DNA of 64,000 nucleotides from Anaerolineae bacterium (lineage in GTDB: Bacteria > Chloroflexota > Anaerolineae > Caldilineales > Caldilineaceae), in contig JAUIHI010000013.1 of NCBI GenBank assembly GCA_030432295.1, positions 62,001 through 126,000 of the forward strand, written 5' to 3'. Shown here piece by piece: positions 4,125 to 64,000 of this stretch. Under the pieces are notes generated by a model. That model had not been told where the DNA came from. It searched no databases and saw only the letters and a list, made by a program, of their open reading frames with translations. Position numbers and translations under genes: made by a program. The first letter of the stretch is position 1; each line of letters begins with the position of its first letter.

Positions 4125-5333
4125 CTATTTGCCGCTGATCAATGGCACAAAAATAGCGAAGGAATCCCCCTTGGCTGCGAGGGAGACGGCAATTACTTTC
4201 TCGGCAATCACTGTCCCTCCGCTCTTCAGCAGAGAAACCGTGACAGTTGCCTGATCGCTGCCCCCGTTGGCCCCGGCGACCGCGGGGGCCAGGGTGACGA
4301 CTTCGGTGCTGCTGCCTTGGCCGGGGCTGATGTTCAGCCAGGGGACATCGGCCACCACCTGCCAGCTATAGTCCGGATCGCCCCCCACGGCCAGGGGCTG
4401 GATCGTATACCTGTCCGGCGAGGCTGTTTCGTCTTCCGGGTCGTAGTAGAAAGTGATCGAATCGGGCAGGGCGTTGAGTTCCGGCTCGGCTGTGTCCTGG
4501 GTCAGATAGATGGTGTCGCTGGCGTTGGCACTCTTGGACTCTGTGCGCATCTCGACTTCAATGGTGTGTTCCCCGGCCGCGGCCTTCAATTGCCATTGCA
4601 GGGGCAGGGCAAAGGGCTGCCAGTCGGACCATTCGCCCTGATCGACACGCAGGCGAATCTCGTTCCACTCCCCATAGACGTGAATACTCAGGATACCGTC
4701 GTCGGTGGTGGGTGCCTCGCCGTTGATGATGGCCGGGTAGATATCCAGGCGACGGCCAAAATCCTGCACCCAATAATGGCGGTAGGAGCCGCTGCCCTGA
4801 AAATAGCCCACGCCTATCTCCCAATTGTTTGGGGAGAGGATATTGCGGCGGTGGCCGTCACTGTTCATCCAGCCATCCATCACCCTGGCGGGCGTGTCAT
4901 AGCCGGCTGCGATATTCTCGGATCGCCATTGGGCATTGCTGTAATAGGTGCTCAGTCGGTCGCCCCAATTACACACTTCCACCAGTTCGCCGTCGACCCG
5001 GTCGTGGCCGGTATGAGAAAAGTAGTTCTCCTCCGACATATCCGTGGCATGAAAACGGGCCGCGTTGACCAGTGGCTCCACCGATTTCAGGGGGGGCAAT
5101 CCGTTGTCCAGCCGGATTTGATTGGTCAGCCGCACAATTTCTTGCTCGAAGGCTTCGTTGCTGCTGGCAAAAATCGGGCCGCCACACCCGGCCAGTGAGT
5201 CCGAGCTGGGGATGGTGCTCTGGCTGCCTGCCCAAACCGGCGCAGGTCGAACGGGCCATACAGCAGACAGCCCTATCAGGCAGATTGCCACAAGCAGTTG
5301 GAAAATTTGGCGGTTTTTTTGTGTGGAAAGCAT
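4125..5333 (-). CDS. Secreted CAP (SCP/PR-1) domain protein with BACON-like C-terminus
   Basis: This 402-residue exported protein has a signal peptide at residues 1-35 (hydrophobic FQLLVAICLIGLSAVW). A CAP domain spans about 60-195, with ARFHATDMSEENYFSHTGHD, the HRRNILSP motif and the GVGYFQG-x-YRHYWVQDFG end; the His and Glu residues of the usual CAP cavity are present. A middle region of about 120 residues is not assigned, and the last 80 residues (WLNISPGQGSS, then alternating strands) resemble a BACON-type beta sandwich. CAP proteins of bacteria are extracellular and mostly of unknown activity. The gene converges on the channel gene with a 60-bp gap. Confidence 0.82.
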   Translation of the reverse strand: MLSTQKNRQIFQLLVAICLIGLSAVWPVRPAPVWAGSQSTIPSSDSLAGCGGPIFASSNEAFEQEIVRLTNQIRLDNGLPPLKSVEPLVNAARFHATDMSEENYFSHTGHDRVDGELVEVCNWGDRLSTYYSNAQWRSENIAAGYDTPARVMDGWMNSDGHRRNILSPNNWEIGVGYFQGSGSYRHYWVQDFGRRLDIYPAIINGEAPTTDDGILSIHVYGEWNEIRLRVDQGEWSDWQPFALPLQWQLKAAAGEHTIEVEMRTESKSANASDTIYLTQDTAEPELNALPDSITFYYDPEDETASPDRYTIQPLAVGGDPDYSWQVVADVPWLNISPGQGSSTEVVTLAPAVAGANGGSDQATVTVSLLKSGGTVIAEKVIAVSLAAKGDSFAIFVPLISGK

Positions 5334-5457
5334 CGACTATAGACCTTTTTTGACAGAGTGCGCCATCAACGGGTACGGTATACAGATGGAACCTATTCTA
5401 TCCATAGCATAGCGGGTTTATGACCGCTCGACTATAGCCAAAAAGGACAACGAACAT

Positions 5458-6516
5458 ATGTTTGGACGCGAAAAAAGTGTCTTCAGTGAGGCTGATGTAC
5501 TGGCCGCGCTCAGCAAAGTCCAGGAGCCGGAACTCCATCAGGACCTGGTGACGCTGGAAATGGTCAAGGATATCGAGATTCAGGGCCAGGATGTCACTTT
5601 CACAATCGAATTGACCACCCCCGCCTGTCCCCTGCAAGACAAGATTGAAGCGGACTGCCTGGCCGCGGTGAAGTCCGCCATCCCAGCGGTCGGGAATGTG
5701 ACAATTAAGTTCACCCACCGGGTGCGGGGGGACGGGCGTATCTTTGGCAAGCTGAATGTGCCCATCAAAAACATTGTGGCCGTAGCCAGCGGCAAAGGGG
5801 GCGTGGGCAAAAGTACAGTCAGCGTCAACCTGGCCGTGAGCCTTGCGATGGATGGGGCGAAGGTCGGGCTGCTGGACGCGGACATCTACGGGCCGAATAT
5901 CCCGATGATGATGGGGATCGCCGACGCGCCGCCGGTGTTGCAGGGCAAACTGGTTCCAGCCGAAGCCCACGGCGTGCGATTTATGTCTATGGGCTTTCTG
6001 CTGCCCGCGGACAAAGCGCTGATCTGGCGCGGTCCTATGCTGCACAAGGCGTTGCAGCAGCTTTTCACCGACGTGCGCTGGGGCGAACTGGACTATCTGA
6101 TCGTCGATCTGCCCCCCGGCACCGGCGACGCCCAGCTATCCCTGGCCCAGATTGTGCCCCTGACCGGCGGGCTGATTGTGACGATGCCCCAGATGGTTTC
6201 GGTATCGGACGCGATGCGGGGCGCGGCGGCCTTTGAGCAGTTGGATGTGCCGATTCTGGGTGTGGTGGAGAATATGGCCGGGGAGATTTTCGGCAGCGGT
6301 GGTGGCGCGGCCGCGGCCAAGAAGCTGGGCGTGGACTTCCTGGGCCGCATCGAACTCGACCCGAATGTGCGGGTCGGCGGCGACAGCGGCCACCCGGTCG
6401 TCGTCTCCCATCCCGACAGCCCCACGGCCCAGGCCTTCCGCATTCTGGCCCGTGTGGTAGCCGGTCGGGTCAGTATGCGCACTATGACGCCGAGTATGGA
6501 ATTGACGGTGATGTAA
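5458..6516 (+). CDS. mrp: Mrp/NBP35-family P-loop ATPase, Fe-S carrier family
   Basis: This 352-residue protein has an N-terminal DUF59 (MIP18-like) domain, residues about 10-85, containing TTPACPL, then the Mrp ParA-like ATPase with deviant Walker A GKGGVGKS at 112-119, DADIYGPN and [14 protein letters not shown]. The family binds and transfers 4Fe-4S clusters. The C-terminal CxxC that normally bridges the cluster in the dimer is missing: where relatives have ENM-x4-C-x-x-C, this protein runs [12 protein letters not shown] with no cysteine. Cluster binding may therefore be lost or use the DUF59 cysteine. The ATG at 5458 lies about 12 nt after AAAAGGA. It is flanked by a palindromic element on the 3' side. 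Confidence 0.88.
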
Positions 6517-6520
6517 CCAG

Positions 6521-6670
6521 ACTAGCGCCGGTTGAGTAGGCTGGGGCAGTATCCAGCCGTATCGAAACCTAGCGGGTGGGAAGAACAGTCGTGTCACCCA
6601 TTCGCTGGTTTCGATACGCCTCGAAGACGCAGAATCCTTCAGATTCTGTCAGCTACTCAACCGACGCTCA
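6521..6670. repeat. Dispersed palindromic element, type B copy 1
   Basis: An imperfect inverted repeat bounded by GCGCCGGTTGAGTAG on the left and CTACTCAACCGACGCTC on the right, with inner complementary blocks TATCGAAACC and GGTTTCGATA. A second copy lies at 35522-35652, and type A relatives with the same outer ends lie at 10645-10737 and 17818-17907. It starts 5 nt after the mrp stop and separates that gene from the next one. No coding potential or transposase is seen, so it is a REP- or MITE-like non-autonomous element. Confidence 0.8.
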
Positions 6671-6704
6671 CTGATCTGATCTGCGTACAACGAGGAGCCA
6701 CCCA

Positions 6705-7754
6705 ATGTACCGATGTGCCATCGTGGGTGTGGGCGGGAACCGGGCCAACGGCCACGCCGACGCCTATGCCAACGGACGGATCGAGCGGGGCCAACTGGTC
6801 GCGGTCTCCACCCGCAACCCGGAGAAGCTGGCCGCCTTTGGCGAACGCCACGGGATAGCCGCCCGCTACACCGACTACCGGGAGATGTTCGCGGCGGAGC
6901 GGCTGGATTTGGTCCACGTCAACACCCCGCCCGATGTGCGTCTGGAGATATTCCAGGCCGCGGCTGATGCTGGCATCCCCAGCCTGGTGGTGGAGAAACC
7001 CCTGGCCATCCAGTGGGAGGACTACCGGGCCATCGCCGAGTTCGCCCGCACCAGCCCGGTCAAAATCGCCGTCAACCACCAGCTACACTTCCACCCCCGG
7101 CGGCTTGCGCTGCAACGGCTGGTGGCCGAAGGCGGCATCGGCTCTGTGCGATTTGTGGACGCCAGTGCGGGGTTGAATATGGCCTTTCAGGGAACCCACA
7201 CCCTACAGGCCATCCGTGCCTTTCTGCCGGACCGGACGCCACAGACCGTCTTTGCCCAGGCAACCGGCACGGACGGTTTGCAGCCCAATCCCCGCCAGCA
7301 CTACGCGCCCGACGCACTTCTGGCTACCCTGGACTACGGCGACGCCATCACCGCGCTGCTGCGCTGCGGGTCCAACGCGCCCAGAGTGCTGGCCGACGAC
7401 CCGCGCGCCCACATCCACAAACGCATCGGCGTCTACGGCGAAAAGGGCTATGTGCATTGGACGATGTGGTCCTGGGAGGTGGGACAGGCCGGGCGGGTGG
7501 AACGGGGCAGCCACGAATACGGCGCTGAAGATGTGCTGGGCCAGGCCGCGCTCACCGAAGCGATGTTCGACTGGCTGGAGGACGACCGGGCCGTACACCC
7601 CCTCAATTTGGATGTCTCGTTGCAGGACTTTGCGGTGATGCTCAATATCTACGAGAGTGCGCTGCACCGGGAGATTCGCCGGTTGGACGGCGGGGGGTCA
7701 GGCGCGTCCCAGCAGGCGGGGCTGATGGCCGCGCTGCGGGTGGGGTTGGGGTAG
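6705..7754 (+). CDS. Gfo/Idh/MocA-family NAD(P)-dependent oxidoreductase
   Basis: A 349-residue protein with an N-terminal Rossmann fold (CAIVGVGGNRANGHADAY), the family segment LVHVNTPPDVR and the catalytic-loop motif VVEKPLA at about residue 94. The C-terminal alpha/beta domain carries a His-rich stretch (AVNHQLHFHP) typical of sugar or inositol dehydrogenases. The substrate cannot be read from sequence. ATG 6705 follows CGAGGAG by 6 nt. The gene stands alone: a type B palindromic element precedes it and a strong terminator follows at 7821-7853. Confidence 0.85.
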   Translation: MYRCAIVGVGGNRANGHADAYANGRIERGQLVAVSTRNPEKLAAFGERHGIAARYTDYREMFAAERLDLVHVNTPPDVRLEIFQAAADAGIPSLVVEKPLAIQWEDYRAIAEFARTSPVKIAVNHQLHFHPRRLALQRLVAEGGIGSVRFVDASAGLNMAFQGTHTLQAIRAFLPDRTPQTVFAQATGTDGLQPNPRQHYAPDALLATLDYGDAITALLRCGSNAPRVLADDPRAHIHKRIGVYGEKGYVHWTMWSWEVGQAGRVERGSHEYGAEDVLGQAALTEAMFDWLEDDRAVHPLNLDVSLQDFAVMLNIYESALHREIRRLDGGGSGASQQAGLMAALRVGLG

Positions 7755-56376: not shown

Positions 56377-56719
56377 GGGAATTGGCTCGCTTGAACATTT
56401 GCAATAATCGTATTTGGCAAATCTGCCTATAGTATACCAGTTTTCGGGGCTGATACTGCAACGCCCCGGCCAGCTTCAACACTGGATGATTTGAGTATGC
56501 TCAGCGCAAGAGGAATCAGGCGAAATCGCTTCTGCTGCCCATTTTGCCAGGCGGCGGCGAGTCGTGAATCGTTCCCAGACTGTAGTAAGATGGGAGAGCA
56601 GGTGGAATTGTCATCTCTGATTCTATGGGCAAGACAATTCCTCGCCAGCGTCTGCAACGGAGCATCAGATCAGTTGCTCTGGATGGCGCTCCCTACCTTA
56701 TGTCACTTTGGAGAAATCG
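56377..56719. other. Upstream region of the sensor kinase gene, with candidate operator
   Basis: 343 bases with no gene. Perfect inverted 9-mers GGAATTGTC (56604-56612) and GACAATTCC (56633-56641), centres 29 bp apart, are a candidate regulator site about 80-110 bp before the kinase start. No strong promoter pair is apparent. Confidence 0.45.
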
Positions 56720-58330
56720 ATGCAGCGTTTCGGAAAAAAATTTTACGATCTCATCCTTTCTGTACCGGTTAACTACAAAATTGCAGGCATTATGCTGCTT
56801 TCGGTTTTGATTCTTGGCCTTTCGCTGAACTACTGGGTCACCTCCGGGCTGGCGGACTGGCTCTCGTATTTGCTGACCGATGTGCGTGTACAAGCCGCCA
56901 TGGCCGCCGGACGCCGCAGCGTGACTGTAGTCACTATCCTGTCCGCGGCAGGCTCCATTCTGTTGGCCACCCTTTTGACCCACGTCTTGACTCAACCCCT
57001 GCTCGAACTGCGCAAGATGGCGATTCAGGTGGCGAATGGCGACCTGAATGCCCGTGCCCCCGTCTATTCCAAAGACGAAATCGGCGATGTGGCGACAGCC
57101 ATCAACACTATGACCGATCATCTGGTACAGGCCCAAAACGACCTGATCCGCACCAACCGGCGCCTGACGGCTATCAATCGGGTCATCCAAGCCGCAGACC
57201 GGGAGCAAGAGATCCACGACGTGCTATATGTCATCCTGTGCACAGTGTTGGACGTACTCAACCTGGAGATGGGCTGGGTCTATCTGCGGGACCCAGAGCA
57301 CGATCTTTACCATTTGGCCACTTGGCACAACGTGCCGCCGGACCTGGGCGCGCATTTGCTGCATGCGCCGGAGCAAGAGACCTGCCGTTGTCAGAAAATG
57401 CTGTTGTCCGGTGAGCTGGCCGCCTCCGAAGTCAAGTTCTGCGCCTGTGGACGTCTGGAGGCTTACTTGCCTCTAACCCAGCGGGCCAGCCATCTTACCC
57501 TGCCCATTTTGGCGGGCGAACAGCGGCTGGGCGTGGTCAATCTGCTCTGCGCCCACGACCGCACCCTGTCCAACGATGACCTCGATCTGCTCGCCGCCAT
57601 CAGCACCCAAATTTCTGAAGTGGTATCCAATGCCTGGCTGCGGCTAAAGTTGACCGAAAAGGAGCAGGCCCGCCAATATCTGCTCGAATCCCTGGTGGAT
57701 GCCCAGGAAGAAGAGCGGGGGCGTCTGGCCCGCGAACTCCACGACGGGGCCGGGCAGATGCTCACCAGTCTATTGGTACGCCTCAAAGTGCTGGAAAATC
57801 AGGCCGACACTCCGCCGGTGAAACAGGGCCTCTCGTCCACCCTGGATATGGTGTCCAACACTATCGAACAGATGCGCAACCTCTCCTACCGTCTGCGCCC
57901 TGCCGCTCTGGAAGAGTTCGGCCTGGCCGTTGTCCTGCGCACGCTGGTCGCAGAGACTCTGGAAGAGTCGGGCATTGCTACCCGTTGCCATGTGGACTTG
58001 GGGAATCTCGTTTTGCCCCACGGCGTCGAGGTCACTCTCTATCGCATCGCTCAGGAAGCGCTGACCAATGTCATCCGCCATGCCGGGGCGAAAAATGTAG
58101 TCGTCGAACTTACCCGGAGAAATGGGGGGATCACCTTGCAGATCCGGGATGATGGATGTGGCTTTCACCCGCGCCCCTTGCCCGATCGAAAAGGCGAGCG
58201 CCACTTGGGTCTCATCAGTATGACTGAGCGGGCTGAGATGGTCAACGGTAGCCTGCGTGTGGATAGTGCACCGGGCCAGGGCACAACCATTCATATCTAT
58301 ATTCCAATTCAGGAAAGTGTACCCACATAA
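56720..58330 (+). CDS. NarX/NreB-type sensor histidine kinase with Cys-rich GAF domain
   Basis: A 536-residue kinase; ATG 56720 follows GGAG by 6 nt. Two membrane helices (about 18-38 and 72-94) flank a short periplasmic loop of about 30 residues; HAMP covers about 95-145. A GAF domain at about 160-310 carries four cysteines in two pairs, C222-x-C224 and C241-x-C243 (TCRCQ, FCACG), suitable for an Fe-S cluster, heme or zinc and so for redox sensing. HisKA_3 has H341 (ARELHDGAGQ), then HATPase (IAQEALTNVIRHA, DDGCGFHP, GLISMTERAEM). It overlaps the response regulator as TAATG and lies just upstream of the dehalogenase operon. Confidence 0.9.
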   Translation: MQRFGKKFYDLILSVPVNYKIAGIMLLSVLILGLSLNYWVTSGLADWLSYLLTDVRVQAAMAAGRRSVTVVTILSAAGSILLATLLTHVLTQPLLELRKMAIQVANGDLNARAPVYSKDEIGDVATAINTMTDHLVQAQNDLIRTNRRLTAINRVIQAADREQEIHDVLYVILCTVLDVLNLEMGWVYLRDPEHDLYHLATWHNVPPDLGAHLLHAPEQETCRCQKMLLSGELAASEVKFCACGRLEAYLPLTQRASHLTLPILAGEQRLGVVNLLCAHDRTLSNDDLDLLAAISTQISEVVSNAWLRLKLTEKEQARQYLLESLVDAQEEERGRLARELHDGAGQMLTSLLVRLKVLENQADTPPVKQGLSSTLDMVSNTIEQMRNLSYRLRPAALEEFGLAVVLRTLVAETLEESGIATRCHVDLGNLVLPHGVEVTLYRIAQEALTNVIRHAGAKNVVVELTRRNGGITLQIRDDGCGFHPRPLPDRKGERHLGLISMTERAEMVNGSLRVDSAPGQGTTIHIYIPIQESVPT

Positions 58331-59016
58331 TGAACTCACCGATAGATTCCTCGACATCCCCCGTGCGCATTTTGCTGGTGGACGATCACGAAGTGCTGCG
58401 TGACGGGCTGCGGGCTTTATTGGAGCATGAAAGCGATCTGCGGATTGTAGGCGAGGCAGGAACCGGTGCCCAGGCCATTGCCTTGACGAACTCTCTGAGG
58501 CCGGATCTGATTGTCCTCGATCTGGGCCTGCCCGACATCAGCGGCCTGGAGGTGATCCGAGCCATTCGCCAGCACAATACCAGCGTTCGTATCGTCGTTC
58601 TTTCCATGCACGGTCGGCGGGAGTATGTGGTGCCAGCCATCGAAGCTGGTTGCGATGGCTACGTGCCCAAGTCCGCCACCCACACCAGCCTGCTCCAGGC
58701 CATTCGTTCTGTCCTCGCTGGCGAAGGTTATTTGCACCCCACCGCGGCCAAAGCATTGATGGGATCCATCCAGGATACGCAATCAGAATCCGCCCAGTTC
58801 GAAGCTCTCTCCGAACGGGAGCAGGATGTGATCCGGCTCACAGCCCAGGGATTTACCAGCCGGGAGATCGGCGAGAAATTGGATATCAGCTCCAAAACAG
58901 TGGAAACCTACCGTCAGCGGGCCACAGAAAAATTGCAGATCGAGAACCGTTCCGGCCTGGTCAAGTTTGCCGTGCGTGCTGGGCTGTTGGACGATTTCAA
59001 GAGCAGCGAGGAGTAG
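58330..59016 (+). CDS. NarL/LuxR-family response regulator
   Basis: A 228-residue regulator. The receiver has LLVDDHEVLRDGLRALL, phospho-acceptor D64 (VLDLGLPDISG) and CDGYVPKSATHTSLLQAI; the C-terminal LuxR helix-turn-helix reads LSEREQDVIRLTAQGFTSRE, IGEKLDISSKTVETYRQR. The start overlaps the kinase stop by one base (TAATG). It probably controls the rdhA operon that begins 256 bp downstream in the same direction. Confidence 0.94.
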   Translation: MNSPIDSSTSPVRILLVDDHEVLRDGLRALLEHESDLRIVGEAGTGAQAIALTNSLRPDLIVLDLGLPDISGLEVIRAIRQHNTSVRIVVLSMHGRREYVVPAIEAGCDGYVPKSATHTSLLQAIRSVLAGEGYLHPTAAKALMGSIQDTQSESAQFEALSEREQDVIRLTAQGFTSREIGEKLDISSKTVETYRQRATEKLQIENRSGLVKFAVRAGLLDDFKSSEE

Positions 59017-59191: not shown

Positions 59192-59272
59192 GGTCACAAA
59201 GTTCGAACATTTTGGCCTATTCATTTTCATGTTCATCCACGATCAATCTAACGATCAATTCAAGGAGCCATG

Positions 59273-60670
59273 ATGGCAGACAAACGTAATCTTAAGCTAG
59301 GTCGCCGGGATTTCTTACGGGTGGCTGGTTTGGGTGCCGGCGCAGCGGCTGTCGCTACGATAGCAAAACCAACCACAGTTAAGGCTGGATCGCAAGGTGC
59401 CAAGTTCACAGACCCGGCAGGGCGCGTCAATCGCCCCTGGTGGGTACGCACAGTGGATCAGCCCACCACTGAGATCGACTGGAATGTGATGCAGCGCTAC
59501 AATGAACGCATGGGAACCGTGCGTGGCCCCGGCATGGCAGGCTATGTGGGCCAAGAGGAAGTGGATCGCCTGGAAGCGGCCGCTGCGAAAAATGAACTGC
59601 AACGCATGATCGACAATGTAGACGGCTATACCCTCAAAGACCAGGCGTTGGCCGAGGCCCATGTGGCCTTGGGCTGGAGCTTCCTGGGACCGCAGAAGGC
59701 ACCTACGCCAGAAGAGCGGGGCATGCCTAAATGGACAGGAACCCCGGAAGAAGCGTCCAAGATCATCCGGGCCGCCATGCGCCACTTTGGTGCGGCCACG
59801 GTGGGTTTCATTGAACTGGACGAAAACACCCGCAAGCTGATCTACGCGGTTGATCCCGATGGCAAAGACATGATCTTTACCGATGATGCAGTCGCCACAG
59901 AGACTGACGACGCTCGCTATATCCCCAATTCGTGCAAGTATGTCATTTCTTACACGGTGCAGATGTCCCAAGAAACCATGCGCCGTTGCCCCACTCCCTT
60001 GGCCCAGCAGACCACTCAGTTGGCCTACAAGCGTGGTCAGGATATCCAGGCATCGACCCAGGAATTTGTCCGCGGTCTTGGCTATCAATGTTTGGGTGAA
60101 TCCAGCACGAACGCGTTGGCCATTTCCCCGGCCTTGGCCGTCCTGGCCGGTCTGGGTGAGATGTCCCGACTCAATCGGTTGATCACACCCGAATTTGGGC
60201 CAATGGTGCGTGTCTTCCACCTCCTGATCGATCTGCCCGTGGCGGTGGACAAGCCCATCGATGCCGGCATCATGGAATTTTGCAAGCGCTGCAAGAAGTG
60301 CGCCGAGGCTTGCCCCTCGGAATCCTTGAGCTTTGAGACCGAACCGACCTGGGAGACCCAAGGCGGTTGGAACAATCCGGGCCACAAAGCCTACTTCGAG
60401 AATGCGGTTACCTGTCGGGCCTACTGGCGAGAAGTGGCGGGCACAAACTGTGGCATTTGCTTTGCCGTTTGTCCCTTCGCCAAGAAGGACAAAGCCTGGG
60501 TCCACGAGTGGGTCAAGGCCAGCGGGTCTATGGTTCCCGCGTTGGATAGCTTCTTCCGCACCATGGATGACGCTTTCGGCTACGGTGTGCAGGCCAGCGC
60601 CGAAGAATGGTGGGGCCTGGATCTGCCTGAATTCGGTATCGACACCACAATGTCTGTAAGAGAGGGTTAA
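59273..60670 (+). CDS. rdhA: Reductive dehalogenase catalytic subunit (RdhA-like), Tat-exported
   Basis: A 465-residue protein; ATG 59273 follows AAGGAG by 5 nt (an ATG also at 59270). Tat signal LGRRDFLRVAGLGAGAAAVA. The corrinoid-binding core has YIPNSCKYVISYTVQMSQET, LGYQCLGESSTNALAISPAL, AGLGEMSRLNRLITPEFGP. Candidate active-site residues are Y252, N280 and R313; the N-to-R spacing of 33 matches PceA of Sulfurospirillum (from memory). Two 4Fe-4S motifs: C337-x2-C340-x2-C343-x3-C347-P, and C381-x11-C393-x2-C396-x3-C400-P. It would cleave C-halogen bonds on the outer membrane face with B12 and electrons from RdhC. Epoxyqueuosine reductase (QueG) is a relative but lacks a Tat signal and an anchor gene. 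Confidence 0.9.
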   Translation: MADKRNLKLGRRDFLRVAGLGAGAAAVATIAKPTTVKAGSQGAKFTDPAGRVNRPWWVRTVDQPTTEIDWNVMQRYNERMGTVRGPGMAGYVGQEEVDRLEAAAAKNELQRMIDNVDGYTLKDQALAEAHVALGWSFLGPQKAPTPEERGMPKWTGTPEEASKIIRAAMRHFGAATVGFIELDENTRKLIYAVDPDGKDMIFTDDAVATETDDARYIPNSCKYVISYTVQMSQETMRRCPTPLAQQTTQLAYKRGQDIQASTQEFVRGLGYQCLGESSTNALAISPALAVLAGLGEMSRLNRLITPEFGPMVRVFHLLIDLPVAVDKPIDAGIMEFCKRCKKCAEACPSESLSFETEPTWETQGGWNNPGHKAYFENAVTCRAYWREVAGTNCGICFAVCPFAKKDKAWVHEWVKASGSMVPALDSFFRTMDDAFGYGVQASAEEWWGLDLPEFGIDTTMSVREG

Positions 60671-60672
60671 TT

Positions 60673-60885
60673 ATGTCTGACAAAATGACCATTGCTATCC
60701 GTAAGCGCTCGTGGATCGAATGGAGCGGTTGGGCCATCTGGTTCGTTGGGATTCTCCTCATTGTCCAAAATGCCATTGGCAGTGCACAGGAATTGGAACC
60801 CCGTGCCGCCCTGATCCTCTGGGTCAGTCTGGCCGTCTGGCTGCTGGCTGGACTTGTCGTCTGGTTTGTCCGCAAGGACCGTTGA
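60673..60885 (+). CDS. rdhB: RdhB-like small membrane anchor
   Basis: A 70-residue protein starting 2 nt after the rdhA stop, with two membrane helices (WSGWAIWFVGILLIVQNAIG; LILWVSLAVWLLAGLVVWFV) and charged ends (MSDKMTIAIRKRSW; VRKDR). Classical RdhB anchors are about 90 residues with three helices, so this is a shortened form, identified mainly by position and topology. It would hold RdhA at the outer membrane surface. A terminator-like hairpin follows at 60898-60934. Confidence 0.75.
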   Translation: MSDKMTIAIRKRSWIEWSGWAIWFVGILLIVQNAIGSAQELEPRAALILWVSLAVWLLAGLVVWFVRKDR

Positions 60886-60976: not shown

Positions 60977-62230
60977 ATGTCATCTACTTCTCGTTTACCT
61001 ATTTCGCTTGAAGAACCTGTAGACAGCCGAAGAAGCGCCAATGCAATCGCTCATAAACGTCAGAATCGGCGCGAGCGGCTGCTTCTGCTTTTGGCTGCTG
61101 GCGCTGTTGTGCTGGCCTGGTTCTACGGCTATTTCACCAGTGGCGCGGACGTTGCGCCTCTGGTCCCCCAGGTGCTGCCCGATGTCGCATCGGTGACAAT
61201 GCAGGGAGACATCTTTGTAGGCAGCGACGCAGACGGTCAGGTCATCGGCTATGCGGCTACGGCCACATCCCCAGGCTATGGCGGCCCCATCGACGTGCTG
61301 GTTGGGGTTGATCCAACCGGCGAAGTGCTGGGGGTCGAAATCGTGACGCAACGGGAGTCGCCCGGCTTTTTCCGCTTGGTGACGAGCAGCGATCTGGTCT
61401 CTGAATATACCGGGCGCGCCATAACCGACCCCCTGCGTCTGGGCGACGATCTGGACGCTGTGACCGGAGCCACAGTCAGCGCGGAAGGGGTGTCGAATGC
61501 CGTGCGGGCCGCAGTACGCACAGTGGCCGCCTCGGCCCTGGACACCACCCTGCCCCCGGAGTCCACCCCCATCAAATTTGGCGCACCGGAGATTGTGCTG
61601 ATCCTGCTCTTTGCCGCTGGCTATGTGGGCCACCGGGTGCGCAAGCCAGCGCTCAAGAAGCGCATCCGCTGGGGAACACTGCTGGGTGGGCTGATCTTCC
61701 TCGGCTTTATCTACACCGCGCCGCTGACCATCACGATGATCGCCTCGTTGTTGAGTGGCTATTGGCCCGACTGGCATTCCAACCTCTACTGGTATCTGCT
61801 CATCAGCGGCATCCTTTTTGTCACCACAGTGGAAGCTAAGAACCCCTATTGCTCCTGGTTCTGCCCTTTCGGGGCCTTTCAGGAGTGCATGGCCGCGGTC
61901 TCTGGGGTCAAAGCCTATCGGCCCCGCAACTTGGGCGATGCGCTCAAATGGGTGCAGCGGGGGCTGGCCTTCACAGCAATTATCTTGGGGCTGGCCTTGC
62001 GTCGTCCGGGCGTGGCAGGCTACGAACCCTTTGCCACCCTGTTTGACCTGCGGGGTAATCTCATCCAATGGGCGCTGCTGATTATCGTCGTTCTGGCCAG
62101 TCTGGTGATGTATCGTCCTTTCTGCAACTATCTCTGCCCGATGGACCCGGTGATCGATGTCATCGCGGCTACCCGACGCTGGATCAAGGAGACGTGGACA
62201 ACGTGGCGCGCAAACCCAACGATCAACTAA
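60977..62230 (+). CDS. rdhC: RdhC/NosR/NapH-like flavin- and Fe-S-binding membrane protein
   Basis: A 417-residue protein from ATG 60977 (no good ribosome binding site). After a first helix (LLLLLAAGAVVLAWFYGYF) an extracytoplasmic FMN-binding domain (about 75-195) ends in DAVTGATVSAEGV: T163-G-A-T166, the [S/T]GAT motif whose last Thr is flavinylated by ApbE. Five further helices carry two C-x3-CP motifs, C292-SWF-C296-P and C383-NYL-C387-P, the NapH/NosR/RdhC pattern. PceC of Desulfitobacterium-type clusters is the model: it carries covalent FMN and is thought to pass electrons from the quinol pool to RdhA. It overlaps the next gene by 28 nt. Confidence 0.87.
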   Translation: MSSTSRLPISLEEPVDSRRSANAIAHKRQNRRERLLLLLAAGAVVLAWFYGYFTSGADVAPLVPQVLPDVASVTMQGDIFVGSDADGQVIGYAATATSPGYGGPIDVLVGVDPTGEVLGVEIVTQRESPGFFRLVTSSDLVSEYTGRAITDPLRLGDDLDAVTGATVSAEGVSNAVRAAVRTVAASALDTTLPPESTPIKFGAPEIVLILLFAAGYVGHRVRKPALKKRIRWGTLLGGLIFLGFIYTAPLTITMIASLLSGYWPDWHSNLYWYLLISGILFVTTVEAKNPYCSWFCPFGAFQECMAAVSGVKAYRPRNLGDALKWVQRGLAFTAIILGLALRRPGVAGYEPFATLFDLRGNLIQWALLIIVVLASLVMYRPFCNYLCPMDPVIDVIAATRRWIKETWTTWRANPTIN

Positions 62231-62523
62231 AACAGAATCTACTGCTGGTCTTCGTTGCCGTCTGCGTGGTCCTTGTGGGGCTGACTTGGGCGGACAATCT
62301 GAGCGAGCCACAAGAGGAGGCGACCGTCCAATTGCGCGGCGCGCCCCCGACTGTGGAATCGGACCGGATGCCCGCCGTGGTGGTGCCGACCAAGGAACAC
62401 AAGAACGAACATGCGTCCACCCCCGAAGCAGGATCTACCTTGGAAGCGGCGTCGACCGTTGAGGCAACACCAGAGCTTACCCCAACTGCACCCTTCTATT
62501 TCAATCCGACGGATGACGAATAG
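62203..62523 (+). CDS. Single-pass membrane protein of the dehalogenase cluster, unknown function
   Basis: About 106 residues from GTG 62203 (GTG 62194 is the alternative; AAGGAG lies at 62186). One membrane helix (LLLVFVAVCVVLVGLTWA) follows the basic start ARKPNDQLKQN, so the 65-residue tail is outside. The tail is Thr/Glu/Pro-rich (HASTPEAGSTLEAASTVEAT) and ends YFNPTDDE. I do not recognise it. It overlaps the rdhC end and precedes apbE by 57 nt, so it belongs to the same transcript and may be a small electron-transfer or assembly accessory. Confidence 0.6.
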   Translation: MARKPNDQLKQNLLLVFVAVCVVLVGLTWADNLSEPQEEATVQLRGAPPTVESDRMPAVVVPTKEHKNEHASTPEAGSTLEAASTVEATPELTPTAPFYFNPTDDE

Positions 62524-62580
62524 TCCTTTCTGCGTAAGAAAATGGGTTCATTGGAAAATTTTGTACGAAAGAAGAACGCA

Positions 62581-63633
62581 ATGAATAATCTGATTCAACA
62601 GGGTGAACAAACACCCATCGAAAATTCAAAGTCTGGGGCGCGCATCACCCGTCGTTCCTTTTTGACCATCACCGCCGTGGCTGGCGGGCTGCTGGCGGTG
62701 GGCGGCTTTGCGAAACTGGGCAGTGGCCGCCAGCCTGTCACTGTGCGGGACGAGCGCCTGCTCATGGGCACGGTGATCCATTTGGCTGTGGTTGCGCCAG
62801 ACGACGGGCAAGGCCAGGCCGCGATTGAAGCCACCTTTTCCGCTATGGAGCGGCTGATCGGCCTTTTTGACTATCGCCGGGCCGACAGCGCTTTGGGTAT
62901 CCTCAACCGGGAGGGCGAGCTCGCCAACCCGCCGACCGAATTCACTGCCCTGCTCACCCAGGCCCAGGCTATCAGCGCCCTGAGCGACGGCGCGTTCGAT
63001 GTGACTGTGCAGCCTTTGCTCGATGCCTACCGCCAGGGCGAGACGGATATGACCCAGGCCAATCAGCTTGTCGACTATCGCCGTCTGCGCGTAGACGAGG
63101 AACACATCCGGCTGGAACAGCCCGGTATGGCCGTCATATTGGATGGGCTGGCCAAGGGCCGGGTGATCGATGAGGCCGTAGCCTCCCTGCGAGAGCTTGG
63201 CTTTGACCGGGTGCTGGTGGAAGCTGGCGGGGATATGATGGGGCTGGGCCAGCGGGATAAGGGGATGCCGTGGCGGGTAGGCGTGGCCAATCCTCGGCCA
63301 GCGACCGCGGCGGGCCAACTGCTGGCTACCCTGGACCTGACCGACGGCGCCCTGGCTACATCTGGGGACTATATGAACTACTTTGTGCAGGATTTCAGCG
63401 CACATCACATCATAGACCCGCGCACGGGCCATTCGCCAACCGAACTGGCTTCGGTGACGGTGATGGCCCCCACAGCCGCAGAGGCTGACGCCCTCAGTAC
63501 AACCTTTATGGTGCTTGGCTCAGCCCAGGGCATGGCTCTGGCCGCCAAGTTGCCCAACGTAGAAGCCCTCTTTGTCACAAAAACGTTGCAACAGTTTGCC
63601 ACGTCGGGCTTTCCAAAAACAACAAGAAGTTGA
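62581..63633 (+). CDS. apbE: ApbE FAD:protein FMN transferase, Tat-exported
   Basis: A 350-residue protein from ATG 62581 (alternative 62542). A Tat-like signal ITRRSFLTITAVAGG leads the chain, unusual since many ApbE proteins are lipoproteins. ApbE signatures: LMGTVIHLAVVAP, FDYRRADSALGILNREGEL, DGAFDVTVQPLLDAY, VILDGLAKGRVIDEAV, EAGGDMMGLGQ, ATSGDYMNYF, HHIIDPRTGHSP and a DALSTTFMVLG end. It transfers FMN from FAD to Thr/Ser of exported domains with Mg2+. The obvious target is T166 of the RdhC-like protein encoded 0.35 kb upstream. Confidence 0.92.
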   Translation: MNNLIQQGEQTPIENSKSGARITRRSFLTITAVAGGLLAVGGFAKLGSGRQPVTVRDERLLMGTVIHLAVVAPDDGQGQAAIEATFSAMERLIGLFDYRRADSALGILNREGELANPPTEFTALLTQAQAISALSDGAFDVTVQPLLDAYRQGETDMTQANQLVDYRRLRVDEEHIRLEQPGMAVILDGLAKGRVIDEAVASLRELGFDRVLVEAGGDMMGLGQRDKGMPWRVGVANPRPATAAGQLLATLDLTDGALATSGDYMNYFVQDFSAHHIIDPRTGHSPTELASVTVMAPTAAEADALSTTFMVLGSAQGMALAAKLPNVEALFVTKTLQQFATSGFPKTTRS

Positions 63634-63655: not shown

Positions 63656-64000
63656 ATGACCATTGGAATAAACACACAGGATCCATCCCCAAAGTGGGCC
63701 AAACATCTGGACGATCTGGAAGCCCAGGCGGAAGTCACCCGCGCCCAGGCCGCCCAAGACCCCCAGGCCCATTTGGGTGCGTTGACAGCCCTGGGCCAGC
63801 TCTATCTGGAGGCAGGCATCGCACCCAAGGCCCTCACCCAGTTTGAAGAGGGGTTGGAGTTGGCCGAAGCGAATGAGGATACCGTAGCGGCGGCACGTTT
63901 GTGGGGTCTTAAGGCGCTGGCCCTGCTCAAATTGGGCAACGCCAGTTTTGCACAACGGGCCTTTTTCCGCTGCCTTAACCTGGCCAAAGAGACCGAACAG
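63656..64000 (+). CDS. TPR-repeat protein, N-terminal part (3' end cut by window)
   Basis: An open frame from ATG 63656 runs to the window end (115 codons, no stop). The visible part has a 20-residue start (MTIGINTQDPSPKWAKHLDD) and TPR-like helix pairs: QAHLGALTALGQLYLEAGIA, PKALTQFEEGLELAEANED, LKALALLKLGNASFAQRAF. GGGAG precedes the ATG by 6 nt. It lies 22 nt after apbE on the same strand, so it is probably co-transcribed and may scaffold assembly of the dehalogenase complex; this is inference. Confidence 0.8.
   Translation, partial: MTIGINTQDPSPKWAKHLDDLEAQAEVTRAQAAQDPQAHLGALTALGQLYLEAGIAPKALTQFEEGLELAEANEDTVAAARLWGLKALALLKLGNASFAQRAFFRCLNLAKETEQ

Follow-up and report, generated by a model that had tools for sequence, protein, structure and literature searches.

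The locus analysed here raises two linked questions, namely whether a flavin transferase encoded next to a membrane flavoprotein is its dedicated loader outside the membrane, and whether this arrangement belongs specifically to reductive dehalogenation. The window, i.e., the whole stretch of 64,000 nucleotides that was analysed, lies in a 6.7 Mb genome, and among named genomes, close relatives of the locus occur in MAGs of Caldilineaceae and other Anaerolineae. The initial annotation placed the flavoprotein (RdhC) and the transferase (ApbE) within 60977-63633, which is exact, the two genes being located at 60977-62230 and 62542-63633; it missed a small ORF between the two genes, as well as rdhA and rdhB in the same operon. 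The plus strand carries an operon-like run of kinase, regulator, rdhA, rdhB, rdhC, small ORF, apbE and TPR genes. Very likely, the rdhA-rdhB-rdhC-small protein-apbE operon encodes a Tat-exported ApbE that flavinylates Thr166 of RdhC, which would serve RdhA. At the sequence level, this reading draws on gene content, intact motifs, export signals, a single FMN_bind target and strong linkage in Chloroflexota. The features are as follows.

56708..58330, + strand: HAMP-GAF-HisKA_3 sensor kinase, assigned by its domains and kept upstream in relatives
58330..59016, + strand: NarL/LuxR-type response regulator (PF00072 and PF00196), kept upstream in relatives
59270..60670, + strand: rdhA, reductive dehalogenase catalytic subunit, 466 aa (TIGR02486, PF13486, PceA alignment)
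60673..60885, + strand: rdhB, membrane anchor, 70 aa (translation, EXE motif), kept in relatives
60977..62230, + strand: rdhC, membrane flavoprotein, 417 aa, ATG start (PF04205 and PF12801)
61274..61516, + strand: FMN_bind domain of RdhC, residues 100-180 (Pfam and fold matches)
61463..61474, + strand: putative flavinylation site of RdhC, T163-G-A-T166 (motif)
61850..61867, + strand: first CX3CP motif of RdhC, CSWFCP, residues 292-297
62123..62140, + strand: second CX3CP motif of RdhC, CNYLCP, residues 383-388
62194..62523, + strand: small single-helix membrane protein, 109 aa, GTG start, overlapping the rdhC end (conservation)
62542..63633, + strand: apbE, FAD:protein FMN transferase, 363 aa, ATG start (PF02424, catalytic motifs)
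62650..62655, + strand: twin arginine of ApbE, residues 37-38, in TRRSFLTITA (motif, found in 38/38 linked ApbEs)
63656..64000, + strand: TPR protein continuing past the window (ORF); the closest relatives also have it immediately downstream of apbE

The response regulator is a probable regulator of the rdh operon, and the TPR protein is a probable member of it. The position of the TPR gene is that of the chaperone gene pceT in pceABCT operons; the TPR protein ORF on locus L004 spans 4573-6024, and at L048 and L049 TPR proteins are encoded between rdhA and rdhC.

Three features that define RdhC are present in the flavoprotein: the [ST]G[AS]Tx[ST] motif, two CX3CP motifs and a gene beside rdhA and rdhB. 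Residues 160-168 (DAVTGATVS) match the pattern [DN]xx[ST]G[AS]Tx[ST], with TGATVS at 163-168 and Thr166 as the predicted acceptor. A Pfam search detected FMN_bind at residues 100-180 (E 5.6e-16), and in a phmmer alignment with RnfG subunits of solved structure, Thr166 falls on their acceptor Thr; at least 90% of 45 RdhCs share this residue. AlphaFold 2 modelling (pLDDT 89.6) predicted the FMN domain after helix 1, followed by several long helices, and residues 57-191 of the model match NqrC and RnfG (VIA Z 11 to 15.5), with which Foldseek agrees; the hydropathy profile contains four clear hydrophobic segments, the RdhC criterion being six helices with the FMN domain between the first and the second, on the outside. 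Because of the FMN_bind match and the alignment with the RnfG acceptor, the TGAT motif, conserved and located inside the scored domain, is not a chance occurrence, and the earlier identification of T163-G-A-T166 as an ApbE target pattern in an FMN domain stands. Two other assignments of the protein were rejected, NosR (NCBIfam NF046105, 58.7 bits against a cut-off of 1000) and RnfG (below the cut-off), and a search of plasmid records found no full RdhC.

HMM searches assigned RdhA to TIGR02486 (290 bits, cut-off 160) and also to PF13486. In the alignment with PceA (4uqu, E 1.1e-52), the PceA active-site residues Tyr246, Asn272 and Arg305 correspond to Tyr253, Asn281 and Arg314 of RdhA; both [4Fe-4S] Cys motifs are intact, and RdhA is probably a dehalogenating enzyme. 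Its score with the Tat model, 15.4, is just below the cut-off of 16.7, and the Tat assignment is based on the sequence RRDFL. RdhB contains two hydrophobic segments and an E-L-E motif, the EXE motif being a described RdhB feature (PMC10624902). The genome also encodes a second, distant RdhA-like protein (L058, about 6367-7185; ~32% identity), with neither RdhC nor ApbE nearby.

In the literature, electron transfer from RdhC to RdhA is regarded as unproven, and the electron role of PceC is contested (PMC8905343, PMC10624902). It is quite possible, if somewhat short of an even chance, that RdhC is flavinylated, but that RdhC, the small protein and ApbE constitute an independent quinol or redox module and not the donor of RdhA. 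Four Chloroflexota loci (L089, L095, L101 and L128) contain the three genes without RdhA within about 12-15 kb; the module of L108 is located beside a molybdopterin oxidoreductase, an NrfD protein and a nitrate-reductase-delta-type chaperone, and that of L111 beside a chaperone of the same type, a ferredoxin and a radical SAM protein. Since it is found without rdhA or beside such molybdoenzyme-type clusters, the module is portable, in line with the modularity of NapH-like flavinylated systems (PMC8238504). Moreover, PceA2B2 by itself provides a route from menaquinol to cobalamin, and the RdhB of the window keeps the EXE motif; in Firmicutes, PceC is about 50-fold rarer than PceA (PMC10624902). 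Against an independent module, rdhA is found in the same locus in 33/40 testable Chloroflexota loci, and the RdhC and RdhA distances correlate (r 0.83). As a side observation, the surroundings of the L089, L095, L101 and L128 modules contain no reductase gene. Tat export of ApbE is not confined to dehalogenation either, as Paracoccus also exports its NosX and NirX by Tat (PMC7660919).

A further part of the preferred reading is that the adjacent ApbE is the loader, and the distribution of the two genes bears on this point. Eighty named loci were compared, linkage being counted only where at least 1.5 kb follows rdhC. The apbE gene is located downstream of rdhC in 37/40 Chloroflexota loci and in 0/20 loci of other phyla, which include Shewanella, Desulfoluna, Desulfosediminicola, Bacteroidota and Aminicenantes (Fisher p 4e-13, a descriptive value only, as the loci are related and not independent). 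The three Chloroflexota loci without a local apbE are L067, L073 and L084, which suggests that loading in trans probably occurs; the MAGs of the first two (CFX15 and DeMMO6_45) hold a second rdhC with its own apbE (L090 and L105). Eleven small Dehalococcoidia-like genomes of another Chloroflexota family (f66; 1.4-2.1 Mb), by size and content presumably Dehalococcoides and Dehalogenimonas, each encode several RdhCs and exactly one ApbE, which has a Tat signal, so that one ApbE faces two to four RdhCs; in genus g230 of this family, the single ApbE follows directly after an RdhC pair. Chloroflexota offer a natural pairing of RdhC and one dedicated loader.

Within the source genome, RdhC is the sole FMN_bind protein, a search for NqrB/RnfD-type proteins (PF03116) found none, and among three ApbEs only the rdhC-adjacent one has an export signal. 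Taken together, these observations indicate that this ApbE very probably loads RdhC outside the membrane. Hence, of the earlier proposal of flavin loading outside the membrane specific to the dehalogenase chain, the first part is supported, given the sole target and the sole ApbE with an export signal, while the dehalogenase specificity is at most partly supported, and not in the form proposed, in view of the rdhA-less modules, those beside molybdoenzyme-type clusters and the single ApbEs that face several RdhCs. The single FMN_bind target would also make a flavin-loss test clean. In the family of the source genome, 6/46 genomes encode an FMN_bind protein, all six of them also an ApbE, and 7/7 of the RdhCs found have an adjoining ApbE.

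HMM searches relate the window ApbE to PF02424 (231 bits, model positions 1-266, i.e., the full-length domain), and it matched 13 PDB ApbE sequences. The motifs E227-x-GGD, TSGDY, HHI-DP and D316/T320, aligned with 5mgy, are invariant in 12 relatives, and the protein is probably an FMN transferase. It is unlikely that this ApbE is not the loader, or not the sole one, either because a second ApbE flavinylates RdhC or because the local protein acts mainly as an FAD pyrophosphatase of the Ftp type. The genome does contain two further ApbEs, and the Ftp of Treponema pallidum is described as a pyrophosphatase (PMC4767422); however, the two further ApbEs are signal-less and belong to another clade, and in Chloroflexota the linkage of the local apbE to rdhC is nearly universal. 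A tree of 74 rows, with hardly any outgroups from other phyla, unites the RdhC-linked Tat ApbEs (96/98) and separates them from the signal-less ApbEs that the same genomes encode. Distances among RdhCs correlate with those among ApbEs (r 0.74), which is partly explained by shared inheritance in one operon. The two other ApbE genes of the source genome (L005 on C25 and L006 on C30), whose products have no signal sequence, adjoin genes for a small protein that looks secreted and for a membrane protein with several helices that resembles the b561/ferric-reductase type. In two further genomes of the family (L178 of G035 and L187 of G032), a different short ApbE follows directly after a separate FMN_bind protein unrelated to RdhC.

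The N-terminus of ApbE, TRRSFLTITAVAGGLLAVGG, passes the NCBIfam TAT_signal_seq model (19.4 against 16.7 bits), and no lipobox was found, the signal and its surroundings containing no cysteine; the earlier view that ApbE is exported by an RR signal and is not a lipoprotein is thereby confirmed. Among 38 relatives, one possible lipobox was detected (L080), and the lipoprotein assignment was rejected. The ApbE of L209 carries an RR signal as well. A strict AxA cleavage site is present in 9/38 of the linked ApbEs versus 24/48 RdhAs, and such weak cleavage sites suggest that the signal may stay uncleaved and persist as a membrane anchor. The same figures would also suit an RR segment that is an N-terminal anchor inserted via Sec and not a Tat signal, but this is improbable, considering the twin arginine of all 38 rdhC-linked ApbEs, the score with the Tat model and the TatC encoded in the source genome. 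Non-covalent binding of FMN, or an empty RdhC domain, is most improbable in view of the exact acceptor motif, the conservation of its Thr among the 45 homologues and the PceC precedent (PMC5928378).

In the preferred reading, with Tat-dependent loading of RdhC, ApbE would be made and folded in the cytoplasm and then exported by Tat; the exported enzyme would transfer the FMN part of FAD to Thr166 of RdhC, a residue of the domain outside the cytoplasm, and the flavinylated RdhC would act as a membrane redox protein, with its electrons most likely destined for the Tat-exported RdhA. We infer both that flavinylation takes place and that the window ApbE is its catalyst; the proposed direction of electron flow through RdhC is the least certain step, with roughly even chances of being right. 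Tat export of ApbE would be a simple answer to the question of how FAD reaches the outside in Chloroflexota with an rdhC-linked ApbE.

The small membrane protein is a further constant component of these loci. Its ORF starts inside or at the end of rdhC, and an ORF with one strong hydrophobic helix follows rdhC in 37/38 apbE-linked and 19/24 unlinked loci (56/62) of several phyla; in control positions, the same test gave 1/208 and 3/108 at other gene ends and 3/38 after apbE, while 32/66 positions after rdhA had an ORF, as expected for RdhB. When a profile built from Chloroflexota only was compared with 3,644 ORFs of other phyla, the best 12 matches were rdhC-adjacent (E 5e-11 to 0.009), and no other ORF of that set scored below 0.08; some of the similarity could be compositional, because the common part is a hydrophobic helix. 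The dN is lower than the dS in all but one comparison (e.g., 0.20 vs. 1.9 and 0.04 vs. 0.62), the overlap with rdhC affecting the first codons. The protein matches no family in Pfam or NCBIfam. Its conservation extends over Chloroflexota, Bacteroidota, Shewanella, Desulfoluna and others; a search downstream of rdhC in the Dehalococcoidia-like (f66) genomes did not detect it. A search of openly accessible literature revealed no account of a small protein after rdhC. The simplest guess is that it belongs to RdhC as a subunit or helps to assemble it, and, being kept across several phyla, it is a candidate for a subunit that may have escaped notice in purification studies. More tentatively, and in this full form rather doubtfully, many bacteria may share a module in which the small protein is a missing subunit or assembly factor of RdhC, to which Chloroflexota would add, as the third part, a membrane-anchored Tat ApbE exporting pre-bound FAD.

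One of the closest known systems is PceC, which is covalently flavinylated at Thr168, with loading by Ftp/ApbE (Buttet et al. 2018, PMC5928378). The window RdhC resembles the PceC/RdhC of Desulfitobacterium and Dehalobacter in the FMN_bind domain with [ST]G[AS]Tx[ST], the two CX3CP motifs and the rdhABC order, and also in the extracytoplasmic flavin domain, predicted here (PMC5928378). Unlike in these genera, where ftp/apbE is located elsewhere (in Dehalobacter restrictus, ftp is part of the tat operon, close to rdh clusters), the window apbE is part of the rdh operon, and the Ftps of D. hafniense are lipoproteins, whereas the window ApbE has a Tat signal (PMC5928378); according to a review, most characterised ApbEs are lipoproteins (PMC12052999). 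In the window, moreover, the gene of the small membrane protein lies between rdhC and apbE. NosR with NosX/ApbE of Paracoccus and Pseudomonas is similar in being a NapH-like flavoprotein with a dedicated ApbE, NosX being Tat-exported (PMC7660919), but NosR serves nitrous oxide reductase, and the window RdhC, at 58.7 bits, does not come near the 1000 bits that the NosR model demands. RnfG and NqrC share the fold of the FMN domain and the threonyl-FMN site predicted for RdhC; they do not have its NapH-like Fe-S/CX3CP membrane part, and an Rnf/Nqr membrane subunit is absent from the source genome. The NapH-like flavinylated systems, as presented in the part of Meheust et al. 2021 (PMC8238504) on which we draw, have PF12801 fused to FMN_bind near ApbE, as here, and include a PF13486-defined organohalide class; that part of the source contains no statement on Tat signals in ApbE, on the Chloroflexota linkage or on the small membrane protein. 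Since the flavinylation of PceC at Thr168 and the Tat export of NosX and NirX have been published, the core of the system, a flavinylated RdhC and a Tat-exported ApbE, is of a known kind; to this, the analysis adds the small protein and, for Chloroflexota, the linkage of the two genes and a Tat signal in every linked ApbE.
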